A stretch of 29,185 bases of DNA from a virus. The position numbers were made by a program, and so were the translations under genes. Position 1 is the stretch's first letter. The number at the start of each line of letters is the position of its first letter. The notes beneath the pieces were generated by a model. That model was not told where the DNA came from, did no database searches, and was given only the letters and a program-made list of their open reading frames with translations. Below are positions 4,527-19,649 of this stretch, in pieces. The DNA is taken from positions 1 to 29,185 of the IMG/VR virus record IMGVR_UViG_3300009094_000056; one strand, 5' to 3'.

Positions 4527-5825
4527 ATGTTTTTCTTCAATCCTCAACAATTCTTTTCACCTGACGACTCCGGAGGCGGATCTGATGGGGACTTCTCTGC
4601 AGACATGGCCGTCCTCAACGAACCATCTGGAGAACCTTCTCCTCCTGAAGAAAAAGCTAGATCGTATAACGAAGAGCCGACAGTCGAAGATCTCGCCGAA
4701 GAAGAAGAGGACGAAGATGTTCAAGACGAAACCGACGAAACCGAAGAGTCCGAAGAGCCCGAGGAGACCGACGAGGCCGACTCGCCCATCCAAGGCAAAC
4801 CGTCCCTAAAGCAGATAAAGGCGGAGTTTCCCGGTATCTTCAAGAAGTTTCCTGACCTCAAGGTTGCATATTTCAGGGACCAGGAATTCTCCAAGGCGTT
4901 TCCGACCCCTGAAGACGCTGCTCAGGCTTCCCAGAAGGCTGATAATTACGACCTCTTGGAATCCACTTTGGTTCAGGGTTCGCCTGACCTCCTGATGAAA
5001 GAGCTTTCGGAGAACAACCCGAAGGCATTCAAGGAGGTAGCTCTCAACTGGCTTCCGAAGCTCAGAGAAATCGATGAGAAGCTCTTTATCTCCGCTACCG
5101 AGCCAGTTCTAGAGGAGCTGATTTTCCTTGCATTCAAACATGGCGAGAAGACCGGCGACAAGAATCTTGCAATGTCGGCCCGTCACCTCGCCAATTTCAT
5201 CTTTGCGAACGGTGGTGAGATCCCGGACATCGCTAAGAAGCAGAATAAAGAGCCGAATCCTGCTGAGGTCCAACTCCAGCAAGAACGCGCGCAGTGGGCT
5301 CAAACAAGATACCAAGAGGCAGATGGGGAAATCTTCAACTTCGTAACTCGCTCCCTCGACCAAACCATTCGTCAAGGTTTGGACCCTGCTGGAACGATGC
5401 CCGAACGGATGAAAGCCTCCATCGTCCAGGATGTAATCAATGAGATGAACGCCCAACTCGCCAAGGACCCCGTCCACGCACGAAGGATGCAGGGTCTATG
5501 GAAACGAGCTGCTGGCGACGCCTATTCACGAGCAAGCAAAGAGAGTATCGTAAACACCTACCTCTCGGGTGCGCGTCCCTTGCTTCGTGACCTCCGGAAC
5601 CGAATCAGATCGGAATACCTCGGCTCTTCACCCTCTCGGAAAGTTCCGAATGGGAAGGATGAGAAGCTTGCAAGTATTCCACAGAAAAAGAAGCCCTTCG
5701 AGGGATCTTCGAAGCGGGTAGATTCGCGGCGGGAAAGGGCGACGGTTCTCGATCCGAAGAAAATCGACTACGCCCGCACTTCCGACATGGATATACTCTC
5801 GGGCAAGGTTTCTCTGAAGAAATAA
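4527..5825 (+). CDS. Putative capsid scaffolding protein
   Basis: A 432-residue, charged protein directly before the major capsid gene, the usual scaffold position. Residues about 30-90 are strongly acidic (many Glu/Asp with short Thr/Ser breaks), the middle is helical (LKQIKAEFPGIFKKFPDLKVAYFRD and a Gln/Glu-rich segment near 250), and the C-terminus is basic (KKKPFEGSSKRVDSRRE), the typical charge layout of scaffolds that bind coat protein through a basic C-terminal helix. Scaffolds guide procapsid assembly and then leave or are digested. No protease domain is visible. The start follows the previous stop by 4 bp. Confidence 0.75.
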   Translation: MFFFNPQQFFSPDDSGGGSDGDFSADMAVLNEPSGEPSPPEEKARSYNEEPTVEDLAEEEEDEDVQDETDETEESEEPEETDEADSPIQGKPSLKQIKAEFPGIFKKFPDLKVAYFRDQEFSKAFPTPEDAAQASQKADNYDLLESTLVQGSPDLLMKELSENNPKAFKEVALNWLPKLREIDEKLFISATEPVLEELIFLAFKHGEKTGDKNLAMSARHLANFIFANGGEIPDIAKKQNKEPNPAEVQLQQERAQWAQTRYQEADGEIFNFVTRSLDQTIRQGLDPAGTMPERMKASIVQDVINEMNAQLAKDPVHARRMQGLWKRAAGDAYSRASKESIVNTYLSGARPLLRDLRNRIRSEYLGSSPSRKVPNGKDEKLASIPQKKKPFEGSSKRVDSRRERATVLDPKKIDYARTSDMDILSGKVSLKK

Positions 5826-5912
5826 ATTGGTGTGCTCAAATACCGGCTGTCAAAGTCCTACCACACGTAATTGCCGGACCTGAAGGTGTGGCACCGATAG
5901 GAGTAAAAGGTT
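5826..5912 (+). promoter_or_regulatory. Structured leader of the major capsid gene
   Basis: An 87-bp gap, one of the longest in this packed region. CCGGC at 5843-5847 can pair with GCCGG at 5873-5877. The enclosed loop contains CCACAC (5861-5866), which can pair with GTGTGG at 5886-5891, so the segment can be drawn as an H-type pseudoknot ending 7 bases before the ribosome binding site AGGAG (5899-5903). An alternative pairing uses GTGTG at 5830-5834. No clear sigma70 promoter is evident. Structure by eye only. Confidence 0.35.
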
Positions 5913-7193
5913 ATGGCTCTAACAGAGACGCAGGTAGTTGCTGCTGAACTGGAAACAGTCCAGAGCAAAGTGCCCGTCCTGTTCGACCGCGATTCGCTTT
6001 TCTATGGCAACATCGAGAAGCGTGACGTTGAGAAGGTTTCGAATCGGGATATGAGAGTCCCGATGGAAATCCGACCCGGTGGACGGTTCGGTTACTTCTC
6101 TCCGGATGGCGGCGACCTGGGACGCGGCGATGGTCAGTCGTTCGAGAAGGCTCTCGTCTCCACTGTTCACATGAAGCACGGTGTGGAGTGGCAGAAGCGA
6201 GCACAGTGGGCCACCGACGATACGAGGAAGTCGGTTGTCAATGCTTTCCGGCAACTCTTGGCCAAGGCGATGGCAGAGTTCCGGCGTCAGGTCGATTCCA
6301 GCCTCATGACCGGGGGAAATGGTGCAGTCGCGACCATTACCTCGGTTGCAACTGCGGGTGGTCAGGATACCTTTACCTGCACCACGGACGGATTCGGTGT
6401 TCGTCTCCTCCGATATGGACAGTTCGTGTCGGTTTACGACGCCGCTTTCGCCGCTGCCAAGGTCATTGCACCCTCGGCTGGAGCCGCTCTTGTCGGAACT
6501 GCCGCGCAGATCGATTTGGTGGATTATGCGGCAAAGACATTCCGAATCAAGGGAGCCACAACGACGCCCGTCGCTGGTGACAGGATCGTTATCGAAGGGC
6601 TATCTGGGGCCAACCCAATCGCTCTGCTTGGCGTTCCCTACCATCACAACAACGCTTCGACTGGGACTTGGCTGGGATTGGACCGAGCACAGTTTCCAGA
6701 GATTCGCGCCTCCCGTGTTGCGGCGGCTGGTCCGTTGGCACCTGCACACGCGCGAGTTGCTCTGAACCGTATTGGCGACCGTATCGGACTCGATAACGGC
6801 GTCAAGGTTCAGGCCTGGATGCATCCCTGTCAGGTTCAGTCCTACGAGGAACTGGGACAGGCGGTGCAGGTCGTCAATCGGAATGGCGGCTCGCAGCAGG
6901 GTCTCGACCTCTATTTCGACGTTCAGCAAATCGCCGGTGCTCCTATCCGGCGATCGTATTCGTGGGACAAGACGCGCATCGACTTCATCGTTGGAGAGGT
7001 TTGGGGTCGTGCAGAAATGCATCCCGCAGGCTTCTACGAGGAAGAGGGGCGGCGTTTGTTCGAACTCCGAGGTGCTTCGGGTGGCGTTGCGACGGCAACG
7101 ATCTTCTACCTGACCGCCTCGTTCAATACCTTCATCAACAACCCGGCTTCGTGCAGCTACATCGATACCCTGACGGTCCCGTCGGGCTATTGA
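5913..7193 (+). CDS. Major capsid protein
   Basis: A 426-residue coat protein, well within the size range of HK97-fold capsid subunits. The N-terminal part (QVVAAELETVQSKVPVLFD, then RDMRVPMEIRPGGRFGYF, then DGGDLGRGDG) is of the kind seen in many podovirus-like coat proteins. A long helix with WQKRAQWATDDTRKSV and FRQLLAKAMAEFRRQVD corresponds to the spine helix. Residues about 140-235 (TITSVATAGGQDTFTC to AGDRIVIEGLSG) look like a beta-rich inserted domain, similar in place to the P22 coat insertion. It has a good ribosome site (AGGAG, 5899-5903), a structured leader and its own terminator, consistent with high expression. Base composition is GC-rich relative to the fibre genes. Confidence 0.88.
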   Translation: MALTETQVVAAELETVQSKVPVLFDRDSLFYGNIEKRDVEKVSNRDMRVPMEIRPGGRFGYFSPDGGDLGRGDGQSFEKALVSTVHMKHGVEWQKRAQWATDDTRKSVVNAFRQLLAKAMAEFRRQVDSSLMTGGNGAVATITSVATAGGQDTFTCTTDGFGVRLLRYGQFVSVYDAAFAAAKVIAPSAGAALVGTAAQIDLVDYAAKTFRIKGATTTPVAGDRIVIEGLSGANPIALLGVPYHHNNASTGTWLGLDRAQFPEIRASRVAAAGPLAPAHARVALNRIGDRIGLDNGVKVQAWMHPCQVQSYEELGQAVQVVNRNGGSQQGLDLYFDVQQIAGAPIRRSYSWDKTRIDFIVGEVWGRAEMHPAGFYEEEGRRLFELRGASGGVATATIFYLTASFNTFINNPASCSYIDTLTVPSGY

Positions 7194-7202
7194 TATAGGA
7201 GG

Positions 7203-7238
7203 GGACCGGAGGGTCAACGTGCTCTCCGGTCCTTCTTT
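7203..7238 (+). terminator. Intrinsic terminator after the major capsid gene
   Basis: Nine-base arms GGACCGGAG (7203-7211) and CTCCGGTCC (7224-7232) form a perfect GC-rich stem with a 12-base loop, followed at once by TTCTTT (7233-7238). The last T abuts the ATG of the next gene at 7239. It would end or weaken transcripts after the capsid gene and set the coat-to-tail expression ratio. Confidence 0.8.
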
Positions 7239-7832
7239 ATGAACGCATTAATAGATTACTTCAATCAGAAGCTCTTGGATCGCGGGAGGACACTAGATGG
7301 CCGCCCAATCTGGAGAATCTCGTGGGCTCCCGACCAGAGAGAAAAACGGCTTGGGAAGTTCTCCGACTTCTACGGATCAATCTTTCTACGAGAGCGAACA
7401 GAGGTTAGAGACGTCCCAAAATACTGGTATATGGGTGCGCGTTGGGTGCTTGAGCGTCTTAGTTTTATACCTCCTGGTAGCTCTCTTCATCGCGAGCTTG
7501 TTTCTCAAGGCTCGTCTCTAGACCCCTGGGCACCTGTGGTGAATGGAACCTATGAGCCAATCTACGTTTTTCAAGACGCTAAAGGTGAAGCTCTTCCGGT
7601 TACTGAGTGGGCTTTGGAGGCAGTTCTGCACACAGCTGAGTTCGGAGAGAGGCGGAAGCTTTCGGATTCGGATATGAGGGATCAATACCACGAGAGTATC
7701 GAAGATGACGCCAAATACTTCGAGGCTCAATTTCAGGAAGCTGGAAGGTCTGCCCTCTTTGCTTTCGAGAATTCCGTATTCGTAGACTCCACCAAAGTTT
7801 ACAAGGAGAACGTCAGTGCCGCCGAGATCTAA
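7239..7832 (+). CDS. Hypothetical protein after capsid gene
   Basis: A 197-residue protein with no domain I can name. The N-terminal half is rich in aromatic and basic residues (RPIWRISWAPDQREKRLGKF, then PKYWYMGARWVLERL) and reads as a compact globular fold; the C-terminal half is acidic and helical (ESIEDDAKYFEAQFQEAGRSA). The ATG at 7239 directly follows the terminator T-tract, so no free ribosome site is visible; an internal start (for example the TTG near 7257) cannot be excluded. The 3' end overlaps the next gene by 17 bp. A head-associated function is only suggested by position. Confidence 0.65.
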   Translation: MNALIDYFNQKLLDRGRTLDGRPIWRISWAPDQREKRLGKFSDFYGSIFLRERTEVRDVPKYWYMGARWVLERLSFIPPGSSLHRELVSQGSSLDPWAPVVNGTYEPIYVFQDAKGEALPVTEWALEAVLHTAEFGERRKLSDSDMRDQYHESIEDDAKYFEAQFQEAGRSALFAFENSVFVDSTKVYKENVSAAEI

Positions 7833-8487
7833 CGATATCTGCACCATCGTCAGCATCCTCCCGTATCCGTTGACCGAAGAAAAGCCTGGACTCGTGCCCG
7901 GAACTTTCATCATTCCGTATACGGAGCCGGGCGACTTTTCCCTTATCAACATCGAAAGGTGCCAACATGCTGTCTACCTGGACTCCAACCGCCCTCGTCT
8001 TATTGTCCCTGATCCTTCCGATTTGGTGGCTCGTAGCATTGCTTATGACCACAAAACCGCGATGGTCGGTTACGAGGCAGGGATCGCGGAGCCGGGAATA
8101 GATTGGGTCTGGGGAGAATACCTCCCGAACGAGAACGGGAAGAAGGCATTTCAGGCCGCGCACGGTGCCGTTCTCGAAGGTCTCAAAAAGTTGCAAGATG
8201 AATGGTATGTGCGGCTGTTGCGGATGGCGGATGACGATTGGGCAAGATACCGCCAGCATAAATTCATCACCGGACTCCAGAGGACTGCGGCTCAAGTTCT
8301 CGGACAAACGGATCGGGCTTGGATGGTTCAGAACCGAATCGAGGAATCCCTCTCGAAGTGCAAGTTCTGTTTCGCTCAGGTTCATCCAATCGCTTGCATT
8401 TGCCCCTCGTGTCATGGTATACTTGACAAAAACAGATACGAAAAGGAGTTCCTTGGCGCGGGTGTGATCGAGAAGGTGCGAGGATAA
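7816..8487 (+). CDS. Hypothetical protein with C-terminal zinc-finger motif
   Basis: A 223-residue protein starting at a GTG placed 7 bases after AAGGAG (7803-7808), a good ribosome site that fixes the start. The first 110 residues are beta-like (SILPYPLTEEKPGLVPGTFII), the middle is helical (WYVRLLRMADDDWARYRQHK), and the C-terminus carries CKFC and CPSC pairs about 13 residues apart, which would bind one zinc ion. It overlaps the previous gene. The fold and role are not recognised; proteins of this type between capsid and adaptor genes in podovirus-like clusters are usually unannotated. Confidence 0.65.
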   Translation: MPPRSNDICTIVSILPYPLTEEKPGLVPGTFIIPYTEPGDFSLINIERCQHAVYLDSNRPRLIVPDPSDLVARSIAYDHKTAMVGYEAGIAEPGIDWVWGEYLPNENGKKAFQAAHGAVLEGLKKLQDEWYVRLLRMADDDWARYRQHKFITGLQRTAAQVLGQTDRAWMVQNRIEESLSKCKFCFAQVHPIACICPSCHGILDKNRYEKEFLGAGVIEKVRG

Positions 8488-8507
8488 TCCGGAACAGGAG
8501 TCTAGAG

Positions 8508-8717
8508 ATGTTCAAAAAGTTTCGCAAAGCCGGAGTTACTGAGCTTCGTCCCTATGTGTATGGGGAGCCGATGAACGGGATCGTTATTTCTGAGCTGGAT
8601 AAGAAAAACGGATCTCCACAAGTTGGTGACATGATTGCGCGTGATCCAGCGAACCCTAGGGACCAGTGGCTTATCTGCGAATCTTACTTCAGAGCTAACT
8701 ACGAAGAAGTGCGATGA
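8508..8717 (+). CDS. Small hypothetical protein
   Basis: A 69-residue protein with a clear ribosome site (CAGGAG about 8 bases upstream). The sequence has a basic N-terminus and a compact beta pattern (VISELDKKNGSPQVGDMIARDP, then QWLICESYFRANYEE). The phrase GDMIARDPANPRDQWL is like small single-domain phage proteins that carry a short beta barrel, but no family is recognised. Its TGA overlaps the next ATG (ATGA), so the two are coupled. Confidence 0.6.
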   Translation: MFKKFRKAGVTELRPYVYGEPMNGIVISELDKKNGSPQVGDMIARDPANPRDQWLICESYFRANYEEVR

Positions 8718-8860
8718 AGCCACTCTGGTCGGTCACAATCGCACTCTGTAAAGGCGATGATGAAGTGGACAAACTCGATATCTCAGATACCAACCTAGAC
8801 GAGATTATCGAATCTATTGAGCGATGGTTAGAGGCGCTCAATACTCTAAAGGAGAGTTAA
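8714..8860 (+). CDS. Tiny acidic protein (48 aa)
   Basis: A short ORF read directly from the sequence: it begins MKPLWSVTIALCKGDDEVDK and ends with an amphipathic helix IIESIERWLEALNTLKES. The start overlaps the upstream stop (ATGA) and the TAA lies directly before the TTG start of the next gene, so it exactly fills the space between two genes on the same strand. That tight fit is the main reason to accept it. Function unknown. Confidence 0.55.
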   Translation: MKPLWSVTIALCKGDDEVDKLDISDTNLDEIIESIERWLEALNTLKES

Positions 8861-9076
8861 TTGGACCCTATCTCTACCTTCAACGTCGAGGAGGTTTTCA
8901 AGTTTGTTGCTCCCAAACACCCTCGCGAAAGACTGGTGGAGCAGGTTGCGAAGGATTTTGTTCTTATGGCTCAGAGCATCCTCTATAATGTTCCAGAGTC
9001 TCAGGAACGAGTTGATGCTCTGAAACTTCTTCACGAGGCAGAGCAAATCTGTATCTCCCGAATCCTGGAGGAATAA
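8861..9076 (+). CDS. Small helical-hairpin protein, possible Acb2/Tad1-type fold
   Basis: A 71-residue protein starting at TTG, 7 bases after AAGGAG at 8848-8853. The predicted form is two helices joined by a Pro-x-Ser turn: FKFVAP, a helix of about 26 residues, PES, then ERVDALKLLHEAEQICISRI. It lines up without gaps with the next protein (aromatic-x-aromatic-x-x-Pro, 26 residues, Pro-x-Ser, five residues, Ala). This layout is like the small hairpin proteins grouped with anti-CBASS Acb2 and anti-Thoeris Tad1, but the usual MWA segment of the second helix is absent here (QICIS instead), so ligand binding may be lost. It could simply be a structural paralogue. Confidence 0.5.
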   Translation: MDPISTFNVEEVFKFVAPKHPRERLVEQVAKDFVLMAQSILYNVPESQERVDALKLLHEAEQICISRILEE

Positions 9077-9077
9077 C

Positions 9078-9296
9078 ATGATTGACAAACCGTATGCTTA
9101 TCACAAACCCTCAGCAGAGGGTCTCGAAAAGATCAACCGGCTCCGTGCTCACTTTTCCGAGGGTGAGCGACTAATCAAGGAAATTTGTCCTCCGTCTCGG
9201 CAAACATCGGTCGCGATTACGGAAAACGAAACGACTGCAATGTGGGCAATCAAAGCAGTCGTGTTCAACGACCCGAAAAGCGAAGTAGAGGGATAG
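9078..9296 (+). CDS. Acb2/Tad1-like hairpin protein, candidate cyclic-nucleotide sponge
   Basis: A 72-residue protein starting just after GGAGGAATAAC. It has the pattern YAYHKP, a helix with EKINRLRAHFSEGERLIKEI, a PPSRQTSVAIT turn and a second helix ending in TAMWAIKAVVFND. The combination of a KP-x-G-x(2-4)-I-x2-LR start with Ser-Arg, Ala-Ile-Thr and MWA-x-KA in the second helix is, from memory, the hallmark of the Acb2/Tad1 hairpin family, whose members bind cyclic oligonucleotides or ADP-ribose-type signals and so block CBASS or Thoeris defence. The gene is in the late structural block rather than an early region. Family assignment is from motif recall; the bound ligand is unknown. Confidence 0.6.
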   Translation: MIDKPYAYHKPSAEGLEKINRLRAHFSEGERLIKEICPPSRQTSVAITENETTAMWAIKAVVFNDPKSEVEG

Positions 9297-15398: not shown

Positions 15399-15582
15399 AC
15401 TTCCGCGTCAAGAAATTACCCTCGATGAACTCTACGCAATCATAGGAGAACTTGACGTTGTTCGTCGGAAGATGACTCAGCAACTTCAGCAACTCTACAA
15501 GCAGGTCGATGAGATGGCGCAAGAAATTGCCACGCTGAGGAACAAAGATGGCGGACTGGCTCAAGCCGACAATTACAAGTAA
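15391..15582 (+). CDS. Short coiled-coil protein
   Basis: A 63-residue protein that overlaps the previous gene by 8 bp and the next by 35 bp. Residues about 8-52 form one long heptad-like helix (LDELYAIIGELDVVRRKMTQ, then LYKQVDEMAQEIATLR), as in trimeric or dimeric coiled coils. Short coiled-coil proteins next to fibre genes can be fibre connectors or chaperones, and in some phages a similar small ORF lies before lysis genes; neither is shown here. Confidence 0.6.
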   Translation: MNELPRQEITLDELYAIIGELDVVRRKMTQQLQQLYKQVDEMAQEIATLRNKDGGLAQADNYK

Positions 15583-16177
15583 TTACGTTACCTTCGTCGA
15601 TGAGGTGAAGGACCGTGATTTCGATGCTATCTCTCTGCAATACAATGCGCTCGTAAATCCCCCGAACGCCTCGGTGAAGCTCGTTCGAAGCCCTGTCAAA
15701 TTCCAGCAATGGATGACGGGAGCTTGGAACGAGCTGACCCTATCTGTAGAAGGCGGGGGAACTGGGGCGACCTCGATTGCAGGCATTCGGACAGCTATTG
15801 GCCTTGGGTCGATGGCTTACCAGAATTCCAATGCGATTGCAGTTACGGGAGGGACGATAGCCAACATCTCCTCAGGTGGTTCTTATTTTAACCATCAGGG
15901 TGGGACGATGACTGTTCTTACTCCCACCATAGCGGGTCATAGCCTGACAGTAAATGCGCCCTCGAATAGTTACGTTGGTATATTAGTTCAAGGGCCTTCT
16001 GGACCAACCTCTCACGGGCTTGCGATTTCTGCGGGTGCGAACCATAACGACTTCCCTCTTATCATCCGAAACTACAATAACACCACAGAGATAATGAGAG
16101 TTACAGGCTTGGGATCTGTCTGGATTCCCGGCACTTTCGCTATTCCCGTAGGCGCAGATAAATGGGTTCCTTGGTAA
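15548..16177 (+). CDS. Short tail fibre/spike-like protein
   Basis: A 209-residue protein. Residues about 70-105 hold the familiar fibre linker GGGTGATSIAGIRTAIGLGS followed by an ITGG-like stretch (IAVTGGTIANI), which is typical of phage tail fibres. The rest is Gly/Ser/Asn-rich beta sequence. The first 60 residues (TITSNYVTFVDEVKDRDFDA) may be the tail-binding part. Its TAA is followed immediately by the ATG of the His-rich gene, so these are in one transcript. It may anchor or pair with the His-rich protein, which is inference. Confidence 0.7.
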   Translation: MADWLKPTITSNYVTFVDEVKDRDFDAISLQYNALVNPPNASVKLVRSPVKFQQWMTGAWNELTLSVEGGGTGATSIAGIRTAIGLGSMAYQNSNAIAVTGGTIANISSGGSYFNHQGGTMTVLTPTIAGHSLTVNAPSNSYVGILVQGPSGPTSHGLAISAGANHNDFPLIIRNYNNTTEIMRVTGLGSVWIPGTFAIPVGADKWVPW

Positions 16178-17092
16178 ATGGCTAAGAGACCCGGCTCCCT
16201 TTGGGTTGAAGGCAACAACCTTAACTACGTAGATGCCTCCTCTAGGGAGTGGTCCTATGCTGGCACATTCATCAAGAGTATAGGATTCGCTCGTCCTGGC
16301 TCTCTATGGGTAGAGGGTTATTACATCTACTACGTCAACGAAGCTGGCAACACCGTCTTTAGACTAGAGGCCGTTTGGAATGGTGAGTATCATGGGAGAA
16401 CGGGAAGCCTCTGGGTCGAAGGGGATAAGCTTCGCCATATTGGAGGAGGAGAGGCTGCAGAGTTCCATGCTCATTCTGATATTACCCATCAAAACGTAGC
16501 TCATACAGATACCGGAATCGCTACTCACACCAACACTCATACAAACATTGGGCATCAAAACGTTGCTCACGTCAATTATCATCAAAACGTAGCTCACGTA
16601 AATACACACACGAATTACGAGCACGCGAATTATCATGGAGACACTCATACTAACATCGCACATACGGATGAGTGGGCTGTTCTGGAGCATGGGGATACGC
16701 ATTCCAACATTACTCCTTATAGTTATCATCATGCAGATTGTTGGCGCTACGATCGGGGCACTGTAATTGACCATCACGACCATCAGGATTGGCCGGGTTA
16801 TCCCCATAATGATGGTTACGTCTTTCAGGATCACTGTGATTGGCACGATAACCTAGCTCATGCGAATAACCATTACGACTCACCGGGTCAGGCCGCGCAC
16901 ACCAATTATCACGGAAACGTAGATCATCAGAACTACTACACTCAAGTCGCGCACACAAATAATCATGGGGACACGCATACGGATATTGCTCACAGCGATG
17001 TTCCTCATGCGAATCATAACGACACGATTCACCAAAATGTCGCCCATGCGAATGTCACTCATCAGGATCAGCCGGTTCTCATAGGACTCTAA
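16178..17092 (+). CDS. His-Xaa-[Asn/Asp] repeat protein, candidate radical SAM substrate
   Basis: A 304-residue protein in two parts. Residues 4-96 hold three units of about 35 residues, each opening with R(P/T)GSLWVEG at 4, 39 and 74, likely a small beta domain that anchors it to the tail. Residues 97-295 contain 39 His, of which 36 are followed by any residue and then Asn or Asp, spaced mostly 4-5 residues apart. HQNVAH occurs four times (104, 126, 135, 285) with different codons, and HGDTHTNIAHTD is echoed as HGDTHTDIAHSD, so the protein pattern is selected and old. Only two Cys (188, 220) lie in the region. The gene overlaps the radical SAM gene by one base. Either a modified fibre, a metal-binding shaft, or both; no similar family is known to me by name. 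Confidence 0.75.
   Translation: MAKRPGSLWVEGNNLNYVDASSREWSYAGTFIKSIGFARPGSLWVEGYYIYYVNEAGNTVFRLEAVWNGEYHGRTGSLWVEGDKLRHIGGGEAAEFHAHSDITHQNVAHTDTGIATHTNTHTNIGHQNVAHVNYHQNVAHVNTHTNYEHANYHGDTHTNIAHTDEWAVLEHGDTHSNITPYSYHHADCWRYDRGTVIDHHDHQDWPGYPHNDGYVFQDHCDWHDNLAHANNHYDSPGQAAHTNYHGNVDHQNYYTQVAHTNNHGDTHTDIAHSDVPHANHNDTIHQNVAHANVTHQDQPVLIGL
16187..16423 (+). repeat. Three PGSLWVEG units (35-residue period)
   Basis: Encodes R(P/T)GSLWVEG at residues 4-12, 39-47 and 74-82 of the His-rich protein. Each is followed by a strand ending in Tyr-Val or His-Ile. The DNA of the three copies differs at many third positions, so they are not a recent duplication. Confidence 0.85.
16466..17062 (+). repeat. His-Xaa-[Asn/Asp] repeat region
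   Basis: Encodes residues 97-295 of the His-rich protein. His makes up about one in five residues, and 36 of 39 fit His-Xaa-[Asn/Asp]; the exceptions are His97, His184 and His200. Synonymous codon differences between copies of HQNVAH (16487, 16553, 16580, 17030) show selection on the protein. Confidence 0.9.
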
Positions 17093-18306
17093 TGACTGTC
17101 GAATATCTTCCCGTTGGTATCGCCTGCAACATCGCATGCAAATACTGCTATCAGGAATCGCAGAGAGATGCAGGCAATATCAACACGCCGCGAGACTGGG
17201 ACCGGGTGAAGTTTCAACTCGACCGTCTTGGAGTCGACTTTGCAGTTTTTGGTGGTGAGCCTCTCCTCACTCCGATGGTGCACCTCGAAGAAGTATTTAA
17301 GTATGGCTTCGAGAAGCACGGTAGGAACGGGATTCAGACGAACGGATCTCTCATCACCGATGAACACATCGAGATGTTTTACAAGTATAAGGTCCACGTA
17401 GGAATCTCGATAGATGGCCCCGGTGAGCTGAATAGTGTTCGCTGCACGAACGATTTGACTGCTAAGACAGAGCTTGCGATCAAGAAGCTATGTGATCGGG
17501 GAATCCCTCCATCCCTTATCATGACGATCCATAAAGGGAATAATGATATTCCTGCTCTCACTCGCTGGCTTGATAGTCTTATGTCTATCGGGCTACGCTA
17601 CGTTAACTTCCACGAAATGGAGCAGGAGTGCGGACAAGAGCAAGAAGCACTCTCCGAGGAAGATAACATAAAGAATTTCCTCGCTCTCTATGAATGGACG
17701 AAGCGTTCTAAGGTTCACGCAAACCCGTTCGTCGACATTCAATCCCTCCTCACCGAAGAACAACCGAGAGCGAACTGTGTCTGGCATAACTGTGACCCTC
17801 AGACGACCGAAGCGGTCCAAGGAATAAGTCCCGATGGTTCGATGTCAAATTGCGGTCGAGCTTACAAAGACGGGGTCAACTGGCTTAAAGCTGACACTCC
17901 CGGCTACGAGCGATATATCGCGCTTTATCACACTCCTCAAGAGTTTGGAGGGTGTAAAGACTGTAAATATTTCGCTTTCTGCAAAGGGCAGTGTCCTGGA
18001 ACTGCTATCGGAGGAGATTGGAGAAACCGAAGTCTAGAATGCCGTCTTTGGTATTCACTCTTCGAAACGATTGCGGCCGACAATAAAGACAAGCTGCTCT
18101 CTCCTGAGATAGTAGATAGGAAGGTTCAGGATCTCCTTGGTCGCTGGAGTGTTCCACAGAATACAGACCACGGAGATAAGCACGGAGATTCTCCCCACGG
18201 GGACCAGCATGGAGATCATACCGACTACGGTCCTGGCGTCGAAGCAGAATTCTTAACAGAGAGACCAGAATGGCTACAGCAACCGGAAGAAAGCAAGAGC
18301 GTTTAG
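17092..18306 (+). CDS. Radical SAM/SPASM maturase with HGD-repeat tail
   Basis: A 404-residue radical SAM enzyme. The CxxxCxxC cluster is Cys12/Cys16/Cys19 (CNIACKYC), the SAM-binding GGEP is at 54-57, and a TNGSLI segment near 83 fits the barrel. A SPASM region follows: Cys229, Cys234, Cys254, then Cys288-x2-Cys291-x5-Cys297-x3-Cys301 and Cys317, enough for two auxiliary iron-sulphur clusters. SPASM enzymes of this type usually modify peptides (crosslinks, epimerisation or decarboxylation). The tail at 360-377 has HGD four times and HTD once, matching the repeat of the neighbouring protein. It overlaps the His-rich gene by 1 bp and the next gene by 37 bp. A role in modifying the His-rich protein is inferred from context. 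Confidence 0.88.
   Translation: MTVEYLPVGIACNIACKYCYQESQRDAGNINTPRDWDRVKFQLDRLGVDFAVFGGEPLLTPMVHLEEVFKYGFEKHGRNGIQTNGSLITDEHIEMFYKYKVHVGISIDGPGELNSVRCTNDLTAKTELAIKKLCDRGIPPSLIMTIHKGNNDIPALTRWLDSLMSIGLRYVNFHEMEQECGQEQEALSEEDNIKNFLALYEWTKRSKVHANPFVDIQSLLTEEQPRANCVWHNCDPQTTEAVQGISPDGSMSNCGRAYKDGVNWLKADTPGYERYIALYHTPQEFGGCKDCKYFAFCKGQCPGTAIGGDWRNRSLECRLWYSLFETIAADNKDKLLSPEIVDRKVQDLLGRWSVPQNTDHGDKHGDSPHGDQHGDHTDYGPGVEAEFLTERPEWLQQPEESKSV
18169..18222 (+). repeat. HGD-type repeat tail of the radical SAM enzyme
   Basis: Encodes residues 360-377 of the enzyme: five His units, all His-Xaa-Asp, followed by YGPG. The same His-Xaa-Asp/Asn unit fills the neighbouring substrate candidate. It may be a substrate mimic, a tether or a metal-binding tail. 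Confidence 0.85.
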
Positions 18307-19649
18307 ATTTTACCATCCCTGAGTTCTTCCGAACCGTTTGGGTCTCGGAGAATGCTAGGGATACCTGGGAGCCTCGCATCCACGCTATAGCCTCAAACTG
18401 GCCTTACGTGGAGCGGGCTACTTTAGTTTCAGGAATGCGAGAGGGAATCCTCCAAAGCATTTCTCCGGTAGATCTCCCGATGGTTCATAACTGGTCATCG
18501 GAGCATAAGATTCCGATGGTCATTGTAGGAATGGAAGCGGCCTCTGGTCTCTCTTATGGGAATACTTCTATTCCTTACGAGCAGGGAAAGCCATTCTCTT
18601 ATCGGATTTACTTTGGACATTCCCCAGAGAACTTCCAGACGGCATGGAAAGAAGGTAATCAAGCAGTTATAGGGAGAATGTTGGGTTATCCTCCCTGCTG
18701 TATCGAATTTTTCCAGAAGCACTGGACCCAGAACGGTTGGAGAGACCTAACTTACCATTCTTACATAGAGCCAGAGCAGCGGAATCTGATGTATAACAAC
18801 GTGCTCCTCCGTTCCTTAGGAGTCCGAGCCGTTTCGCATCTTCCCTGCTCTGTAGCTTGCCGACCTTCTTGCATAATAGGAATGGACGTATTCAAGGTCA
18901 TGGAGCAGTGCGGCCATCAGGCAGAGCTGGTCGATTGGATGAAGACCCTTCTGGCTATGCCGATGCTATGGTCCTCACTCCACGGAGTAGCAATTATCAC
19001 GACGCCCATATTCAAGTTGATTAGTGCGACCGAACCGCTTGCGAAAGTCGCTGAATTGCGGCTGCTGAGTGACTACTATCCCGATGAGGGTGCGAGTGGA
19101 AATACCTTTCCCTTCCAGCACTTCAAGACGCTGAAGGTGAATATCTCCAGAAGTTCTGACTTCCTCGATAACGGATTCATGAGCCGTAGTTCGATGGAGA
19201 GTGCTCACAGGTTCATTATTTCTCTCACACCGAATCGAATCGAGGGGATGGTTGGTAACATCCTCGACCTAGGTTGTGGGAATGGAAAGCTACTTCTCGA
19301 AATTCAGAAGGAGCATCAGGATACGGTTCTACATGGTGTAGATACTAAGGATATCAAAGCACTCGGCTGGAATTTCTATCGCACTGATATTTACGATTTC
19401 GAGTGGGAGAAGCAATACGAGCTTACCCTGATGTCTGTTGAGCGATTGTTCGAGGCTAATCCGGATGCAGCTATCGACCTCCTGGAGACAATCGCTCGGT
19501 ATTCACGGTATCTCCTGCTCTCAACCTATAACCAGTGGATGGGAGGATTCGAAGAAGTAATCGATAAACTTTTCAGCGTGGTCACAGTAGGTAGAGATCC
19601 CGTCTTGGGATTCGAAGGTAAGCTTCTGGAGAGAAAACATGCCATTTGA
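18270..19649 (+). CDS. DUF483-like Cys-rich domain fused to class I methyltransferase
   Basis: A 459-residue fusion. Residues about 100-210 have GYPPCC (139-144) followed by IEFFQKHW, and LPCSVACRPSC with Cys193, Cys197 and Cys201; this GYPxCC...PCSxxC layout recalls the DUF483 family, whose function is unknown. Residues about 325-459 look like a class I SAM-dependent methyltransferase: motif I ILDLGCGNGK (331-340), an acidic strand end at GVDTKD and a later YELTLMSVERL strand. It overlaps the radical SAM gene by 37 bp, so the two should be made together. I infer a second modifying step on the His-rich protein. A nucleic-acid or small-molecule methyltransferase is not excluded. Confidence 0.65.
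   Translation: MATATGRKQERLDFTIPEFFRTVWVSENARDTWEPRIHAIASNWPYVERATLVSGMREGILQSISPVDLPMVHNWSSEHKIPMVIVGMEAASGLSYGNTSIPYEQGKPFSYRIYFGHSPENFQTAWKEGNQAVIGRMLGYPPCCIEFFQKHWTQNGWRDLTYHSYIEPEQRNLMYNNVLLRSLGVRAVSHLPCSVACRPSCIIGMDVFKVMEQCGHQAELVDWMKTLLAMPMLWSSLHGVAIITTPIFKLISATEPLAKVAELRLLSDYYPDEGASGNTFPFQHFKTLKVNISRSSDFLDNGFMSRSSMESAHRFIISLTPNRIEGMVGNILDLGCGNGKLLLEIQKEHQDTVLHGVDTKDIKALGWNFYRTDIYDFEWEKQYELTLMSVERLFEANPDAAIDLLETIARYSRYLLLSTYNQWMGGFEEVIDKLFSVVTVGRDPVLGFEGKLLERKHAI

Follow-up and report, generated by a model that had tools for sequence, protein, structure and literature searches.

Why should a virus-encoded radical SAM enzyme carry, in its own C-terminus, the short unit that is repeated in the protein encoded next to it? 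The question is raised by a 29-kb viral record (IMG/VR record IMGVR_UViG_3300009094_000056, positions 1 to 29,185), the whole of which is referred to here as the window. A family A DNA polymerase and a primase/helicase are encoded at one end of the window, and the locus under study is preceded by head and tail genes (Table 1). Elsewhere, at positions 4725-4781, the nine-base tandem repeat GACGAGACC is present in 6.3 copies. The preliminary description of this DNA proposed that the His-Xaa-Asp unit links the two neighbouring genes beyond their adjacency. It offered several readings of the enzyme tail, from a pseudo-substrate or an automodification site to the remnant of a fusion.

Table 1. Features of the locus encoding the repeat protein and the radical SAM enzyme (positions in the window).
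Feature	Position	Strand	Characteristics
Small tail protein immediately upstream of repeat gene	15548..16177	+	Ends IPVGADKWVPW
His-x-Asp/Asn repeat, tail-fibre-like protein	16178..17092	+	304 residues, 36 units; N-terminal PGSxWxEG repeats; conserved end HxDxPxxxG
Radical SAM/SPASM enzyme of a family maturing HxD/N proteins (putative)	17092..18306	+	404 residues; Pfam Radical_SAM 1.5e-16
CxxxCxxC of radical SAM cluster (C12, C16, C19)	17125..17148	+	Invariant in 28 homologues
SPASM cysteines C229, C234, C254, C288, C291, C297, C301, C317	17776..18042	+	All eight invariant in 28 homologues; aligned with anSME
Arg256, two residues past SPASM Cys254	17857..17859	+	Identical in 27 of 28 homologues; L047 alone has Leu
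C-terminal tail of enzyme, HGDKHGDSPHGDQHGDHTD	18169..18225	+	Residues 360-378; disordered in model; conserved through synonymous codon changes
DUF483-like protein with C-terminal methyltransferase domain, third gene of module	18270..19649	+	Pfam DUF483 0.0014, Methyltransf_23 5e-6

The enzyme begins at the radical SAM core, with no preceding peptide-recognition domain. It has the features expected of a radical SAM/SPASM maturase: a CxxxCxxC motif, SPASM cysteines, and a neighbouring candidate substrate with a repeated motif. The top NCBIfam models are the cyclophane-forming AmcB (5.6e-23, 81.5 bits against a cut-off of 425), the dynobactin maturase DynA (1.3e-20, 73.7 against 450), and sulfatase maturase (3.7e-19), all far below their cut-offs; GrrM/OscB scores 50.8 bits against 310. 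The PDB folds nearest to the predicted structure are anSME (4k39, 1e-14) and then the cyclophane synthase ChlB (9gmc, 3e-12). The enzyme family is one of peptide or protein maturases related to both. anSME acts on proteins in trans. It is the best structural match of the window enzyme, but its substrate motif differs and its model scores 69 against 349 bits. Asp277 of anSMEcpe, the catalytic base, which follows the third SPASM cysteine, aligns with Gly255. The replacement argues against formylglycine-type oxidation, and the enzyme is not assigned to anSME.

The stop codon of the repeat gene overlaps the start of the enzyme gene. The unit reported for the neighbouring protein is indeed present there, as 16 HxD and 20 HxN; since both forms occur, it is better written His-x-Asp/Asn. 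Among the repeat proteins of the family, the third residue counted from the histidine is Asp in 709 units and Asn in 88, the next most frequent being Ile (12), with Ser found in 6, and these proteins contain few or no cysteines. Searches of Pfam, NCBIfam, PHROGs, and PDB sequences gave no match for the repeat protein of the window, and a search for relatives using a fibre alignment was unproductive because conserved stretches are lacking. No RiPP leader is recognisable in this fibre-like protein. Its gene follows that of a fibre with an S74 chaperone in the window, and in the Thermus phage Cumys the repeat gene follows tail/baseplate genes. In loci L030 and L034, the HxD/N repeats are fused to long upstream proteins. 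The ending (I/L)PVG(A/T)(D/N)(K/R)(W/F), located at 16142-16177 in the window, recurs in several relatives, including Cumys, at the end of the gene that precedes the repeat gene. More phage proteins with HNDxPPHNDV-type runs are encoded near the enzyme in L149 (2-988, minus strand) and L151 (4744-6192), and they may be additional substrates.

The enzyme tail contains HxD units at residues 360, 364, 369, 373 (all HGD), and 376 (HTD), and residues 1-317 contain none. The four HGD and one HTD of the preliminary description are thus correct, but it ended the tail at position 18222 (residue 377) instead of 18225 (residue 378). Shuffling of residues 318-404 produces at least five HxD units with P = 5e-6, and five units within 18 residues were obtained in 0 of 20000 shuffles of the whole protein, which rules out a chance origin of the tail. 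Over the 19 tail codons, the window differs from L016 by 11 synonymous and no amino-acid changes, and from L017 by nine synonymous and two amino-acid changes. Judged from these codons, the tail is under selection at the protein level.

The units of the tail are not those of the fibre. Asp is the third residue of every one of the 102 tail units, which come from 21 enzymes, and Asn of none, although the fibre in the window has mostly Asn. In a comparison of units pooled over related sequences, Gly occupies the Xaa position in 66 of the 102 tail units (65%) and in 144 of the 797 (18%) counted in the repeat proteins; exceptions to the preference of the tail for Gly are L025 (0 of 5 units) and L039 (none). 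The ungapped DNA identity of tail and fibre gene equals that of controls with resampled codons (P is 0.5-0.9 for five phages and 0.10 for Cumys), and the idea that the tail arose by duplication of part of the fibre gene is rejected. Together with the different use of Gly, this disfavours the suggested remnant of a fusion. Residues 357-388 have pLDDT values under 50, and the linker and tail are predicted to be disordered. AlphaFold gave the tail (pLDDT 34-44) no definite place, so that the model neither supports nor opposes its insertion into the active site.

The association of the tail with the repeat protein was surveyed in 50 loci, of which 37 encode tail-bearing and 13 tailless enzymes. 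They originate from viral contigs, phage genomes (the Thermus phages phiMa, Cumys, and phiLo), and bacterial genomes. The tails contain two to nine HxD units. A dense HxD/N protein is encoded on the fetched flank in 42 of the 50 loci: 35 of the 37 tail-bearing and 7 of the 13 tailless ones. The two tail-bearing exceptions are L036, located on an 8-kb contig, and L152, for which the sequence retrieved extends only to the enzyme gene. A nearby His-x-Asp/Asn repeat protein accompanies each of the 35 tail-bearing homologues whose flanks are long enough to show one. The repeat gene is 0-4.4 kb from the tail-bearing enzyme and mostly directly adjacent to it. The largest distance, 4.4 kb, is found in phiLo, where the repeat gene is on the other strand and the enzyme still has a tail of nine units.

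Of 2.9 million viral contigs, 26 contain a DNA pattern for HGDxPHGDxHGD, 25 of them in the enzyme tail (some copies are truncated or broken) and one in a repeat protein. None of 62 outgroup radical SAM/SPASM loci has at least two HxD units after the SPASM domain, which rules out that the tail is a general feature of these enzymes. A tail of this kind on an unrelated enzyme with no repeat protein nearby would speak against the proposed link, and no such case was found in the viral contigs or the 62 outgroup loci. With 35 of 37 tail-bearing enzymes accompanied by a repeat protein, and a tail word nearly exclusive to the enzyme family, the unit does link the two genes beyond adjacency. The expectation that the tail is present only beside a repeat gene is borne out on the side of the tail-bearing enzymes. 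However, most tailless relatives also have an HxD partner, and the tail is therefore not required for the association. Nor is the tail essential, since some fibre-associated enzymes lack it (L031-L033, L037, and L046).

In a tree of the core enzyme calculated with the tails removed, the family members group together, and a long, supported branch divides them from the SPASM enzymes of the outgroup. The distribution of the tail requires about five changes (4-5 in bootstraps), compared with 11.8 for shuffled labels. Because five changes are needed, the tail was probably gained or lost several times; a single origin is conceivable but less probable. When viral contigs were scanned in the converse direction, for HxD repeats of period 4, most hits were DNA microsatellites. 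Real HxD repeat proteins were found in L166 (1-2417) and L173 (2014-2841), which are viral contig fragments of 17-19 kb on which no family enzyme was found. Either the enzyme is encoded off the fragment, or there are HxD fibres without the enzyme, and the rule that a repeat implies an enzyme is not supported. A search of about 400 genomes from each of the phyla of L041 and L050 identified no new member at E 1e-90. The reading frame of the enzyme is broken in L131 (contig 3300012159_000003) and L143 (contig 3300044699_000072), and intact relatives exist.

Almost every locus encodes a DUF483-like homologue downstream of the enzyme. The fold matches of the model of the window protein are Rossmann methyltransferases; they came mainly from the methyltransferase half, and the search was uninformative about the DUF483 half. 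The DUF483 proteins of Thermus phages, including Cumys, differ from that of the window in having no methyltransferase domain, and methylation is therefore likely to be optional. An aKG-HExxH peptide beta-hydroxylase (TIGR04267) is encoded between the fibre and the enzyme in the phage contig L134 (7636-8475, 70.5 bits, cut-off 40), and another adjoins the enzyme in L047 (9156-9953, 57.7 bits, cut-off 40). A HExxH protein that partners a cyclophane synthase introduces hydroxyl groups at Asp and His (PMC12636437). A further TIGR04267 match, below the cut-off, is located beside the HxD enzyme in L043 (10285-10806).

The bacterial and tailless relatives extend the range of candidate substrates. Short HxD proteins adjoin the enzyme in L041-L043 (Acidobacteriota), and the enzyme reading frame continues into the DUF483-like domain in L043 and L050. 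In L049, from an actinobacterial MAG, the HxD protein has a lipoprotein-like N-terminus and the enzyme tail consists of two units. Six tailless loci have no dense HxD/N protein on the fetched flank: L045, L048, L113, and L047, which are described below, and L031 and L033, whose contigs end near the gene and whose near-identical relative L032 has an HxD fibre. In the repeat protein of L037, 16 of the 17 units have Asn. Three loci encode RiPP-like precursors of about 80 residues, which end in GTIHIDIL (L045, 4660-4911), SVVHVDV (L048, 3080-3313), and AVVHIDF (L113, 10724-10966). The enzymes beside these leader-type precursors have no tail. The clusters are apparently undescribed, and that of L045 also encodes a YydG-like epimerase and a RiPP B12-rSAM C-methyltransferase.

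A 1363-residue protein with several HxD units at its end is encoded directly upstream of the enzyme in L050 (Frankia). Its homologue in L047 (Fulvivirga, 4841-7972, BLASTP 3e-7) ends in His-x-Lys repeats. The L047 enzyme (8001-9152) is the only one among 28 in which Arg256 is replaced by Leu, accompanied by the changes Q82M, T145Q, and D309E. This single case suggests that Arg256 may contact residue 3 of the unit. With its HxK repeats and Leu-containing enzyme, L047 resembles a natural specificity switch.

Triceptide/cyclophane enzymes (OscB, XncB, YxdB, HaaB, and ChlB) likewise contain a SPASM domain and act on an i,i+2 motif, in which the first residue is aromatic and the third may be Asp or Asn. 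The window enzyme differs from them in that no curated model reaches its cut-off, that the candidate substrate is a putative virion fibre with dozens of units and without a recognisable leader, and that the enzyme bears a substrate-like tail. The three-residue crosslinks made over i,i+2 include Trp-Cbeta(Asn/Asp), C3(Tyr)-Cbeta(Asp), and C2(His)-Cbeta(Ala), and His-Asp/Asn is absent from the His crosslinks given in the review that describes them (PMC11002830). The His-Xaa-Ser system also has a His-Xaa-residue motif, which is thought to be matured by the radical SAM proteins HxsB and HxsC (PMC9062424). The third residue in the proteins studied here is Ser in 6 units compared with Asp or Asn in 797, there is one radical SAM enzyme, and neither HxsB nor HxsC is among its best 25 NCBIfam models; the locus is not assigned to that system. 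HxsA is the repeat protein of the His-Xaa-Ser system.

The explanation that accounts best for these observations, to which slightly less than an even chance is given as a whole, is that the enzyme carries out the post-translational maturation of the tail-fibre protein encoded next to it. The His-x-Asp/Asn units, which are very probably the substrate of the enzyme, would be recognised and then acted on by the radical SAM and SPASM iron-sulfur clusters. Of the possible products, the likeliest would have the His imidazole bonded to the beta carbon of residue 3, forming a three-residue cyclophane repeated along the fibre; for this crosslink the chances are about evenly balanced. The constant His and a third residue that is Asp, Asn, or in one case Lys fit a bond at the beta carbon and not at a carboxylate, and the scarcity of cysteines in the repeat proteins agrees with this too. 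Cyclophane chemistry is also in keeping with the best models and nearest folds of the enzyme, with the crosslinks known for such enzymes, and with the aKG-HExxH hydroxylases encoded in the clusters of L134 and L047. A modification partner would be the DUF483-like protein, in many cases together with a methyltransferase and in some with the aKG-HExxH hydroxylase. The flexible tail, Asp-only and rich in Gly, may be an in-cis mimic of the substrate that engages or holds the leaderless repeat protein. The role of a tethered docking mimic is a tentative best guess, favoured because the enzyme has no recognition domain, the fibre has no leader, and enzymes beside leader-type precursors have no tail. 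The variation in the number of tail units and the suitability of His-x-Asp for metal binding count against this explanation, as do the fibre-associated enzymes that have no tail, the repeat proteins of L166 and L173, and the exceptions to the Gly preference. A bolder version is possible but doubtful: a widespread phage system with a poly-cyclophane fibre stapled at dozens of units, a selected tail that replaces both leader and recognition domain, and Arg256 that reads residue 3.

It is conceivable, though unlikely, that the tail is itself a substrate, and that the enzyme modifies its own C-terminus as a switch or for fibre assembly. The tail has real HxD units, placed on a flexible linker that in the predicted structure would be long enough to reach the active site. 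A precedent is provided by borosin precursors, in which, according to passages of PMC7878506, a methyltransferase domain autocatalytically modifies a C-terminal core peptide; OphMA (omphalotin) has a substrate-type sequence on its own C-terminus, as does the enzyme studied here. However, borosin methyltransferases perform a different chemistry, and the main substrate proposed here is a separate protein. Automodification is also opposed by the dissimilarity of tail and fibre units, with Gly at Xaa and never Asn, by substrates proper being separate proteins, and by the many relatives without a tail.

Less probable is that the units are metal sites, with the tail, rich in His and Asp, storing metal or acting as a chaperone arm, and with the fibre forming a metal-stabilised trimer, so that the shared motif would reflect a common metal. 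Metallochaperones UreE, HypB, and SlyD have His-rich C-terminal tails, and the tip of T4 gp37 contains HxH iron sites; the strict use of Asp in the tail agrees with such a function. In contrast, Asn occupies over half of the fibre units in the window and nearly all of those in L037, and Lys is found in L047, all of which are poor ligands. Furthermore, RiPP-like precursors with a single terminal HxD need no metal site, and the usual partnership with a radical SAM peptide maturase would be left unexplained.

That the tail is functionless, a fusion remnant or a chance low-complexity extension, is highly improbable: such tails do come and go, and the family tree has its several changes, but the purely synonymous divergence from L016, the recurrence of HGDxPHGDxHGD in 25 enzymes, and the lack of DNA likeness to the fibre gene all speak against it. 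For the Thermus phages Cumys and phiMa, passages of a 2024 article in Viruses (PMC11437467) describe an "rSAM module" of an rSAM protein, a DUF483 protein, and a hypothetical protein, and suggest that it modifies DNA; HxD repeats and the enzyme tail are not mentioned in these passages. Cumys has homologous genes in the same order as the window, encoding an HxD repeat protein (Cumys_13), an HxD-tailed rSAM enzyme (Cumys_12), and the DUF483 protein (Cumys_11). Modification of DNA has very little probability, because, although the same passages place homologues of the rSAM and DUF483 proteins in gene contexts of cyanobacterial deazapurine DNA modification, the third protein of the Cumys module carries 54 units and is itself an HxD repeat protein, the enzyme is nearest to peptide maturases, and its relatives are found with RiPP-like precursors, a B12-rSAM RiPP C-methyltransferase, and peptide beta-hydroxylases.

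No report of radical SAM modification of a phage fibre was found in a search of the open-access literature, with subscription journals mostly outside its scope, and the passages of a paper on a Burkholderia jumbo phage were not relevant to it. Radical SAM maturation of a virion fibre thus seems to be undescribed. What would be new, it seems, is SPASM maturation of a repeat substrate moved to a virion protein, together with a substrate-like tail on the enzyme. If the proposed maturation of the fibre is correct, it would explain a conserved phage module that lacks an assigned function, and a virion protein would join the substrates of cyclophane-type chemistry. Cumys and phiMa have already been isolated on Thermus thermophilus HB8, and the module would provide a test bed for how SPASM-type enzymes find leaderless repeat substrates.
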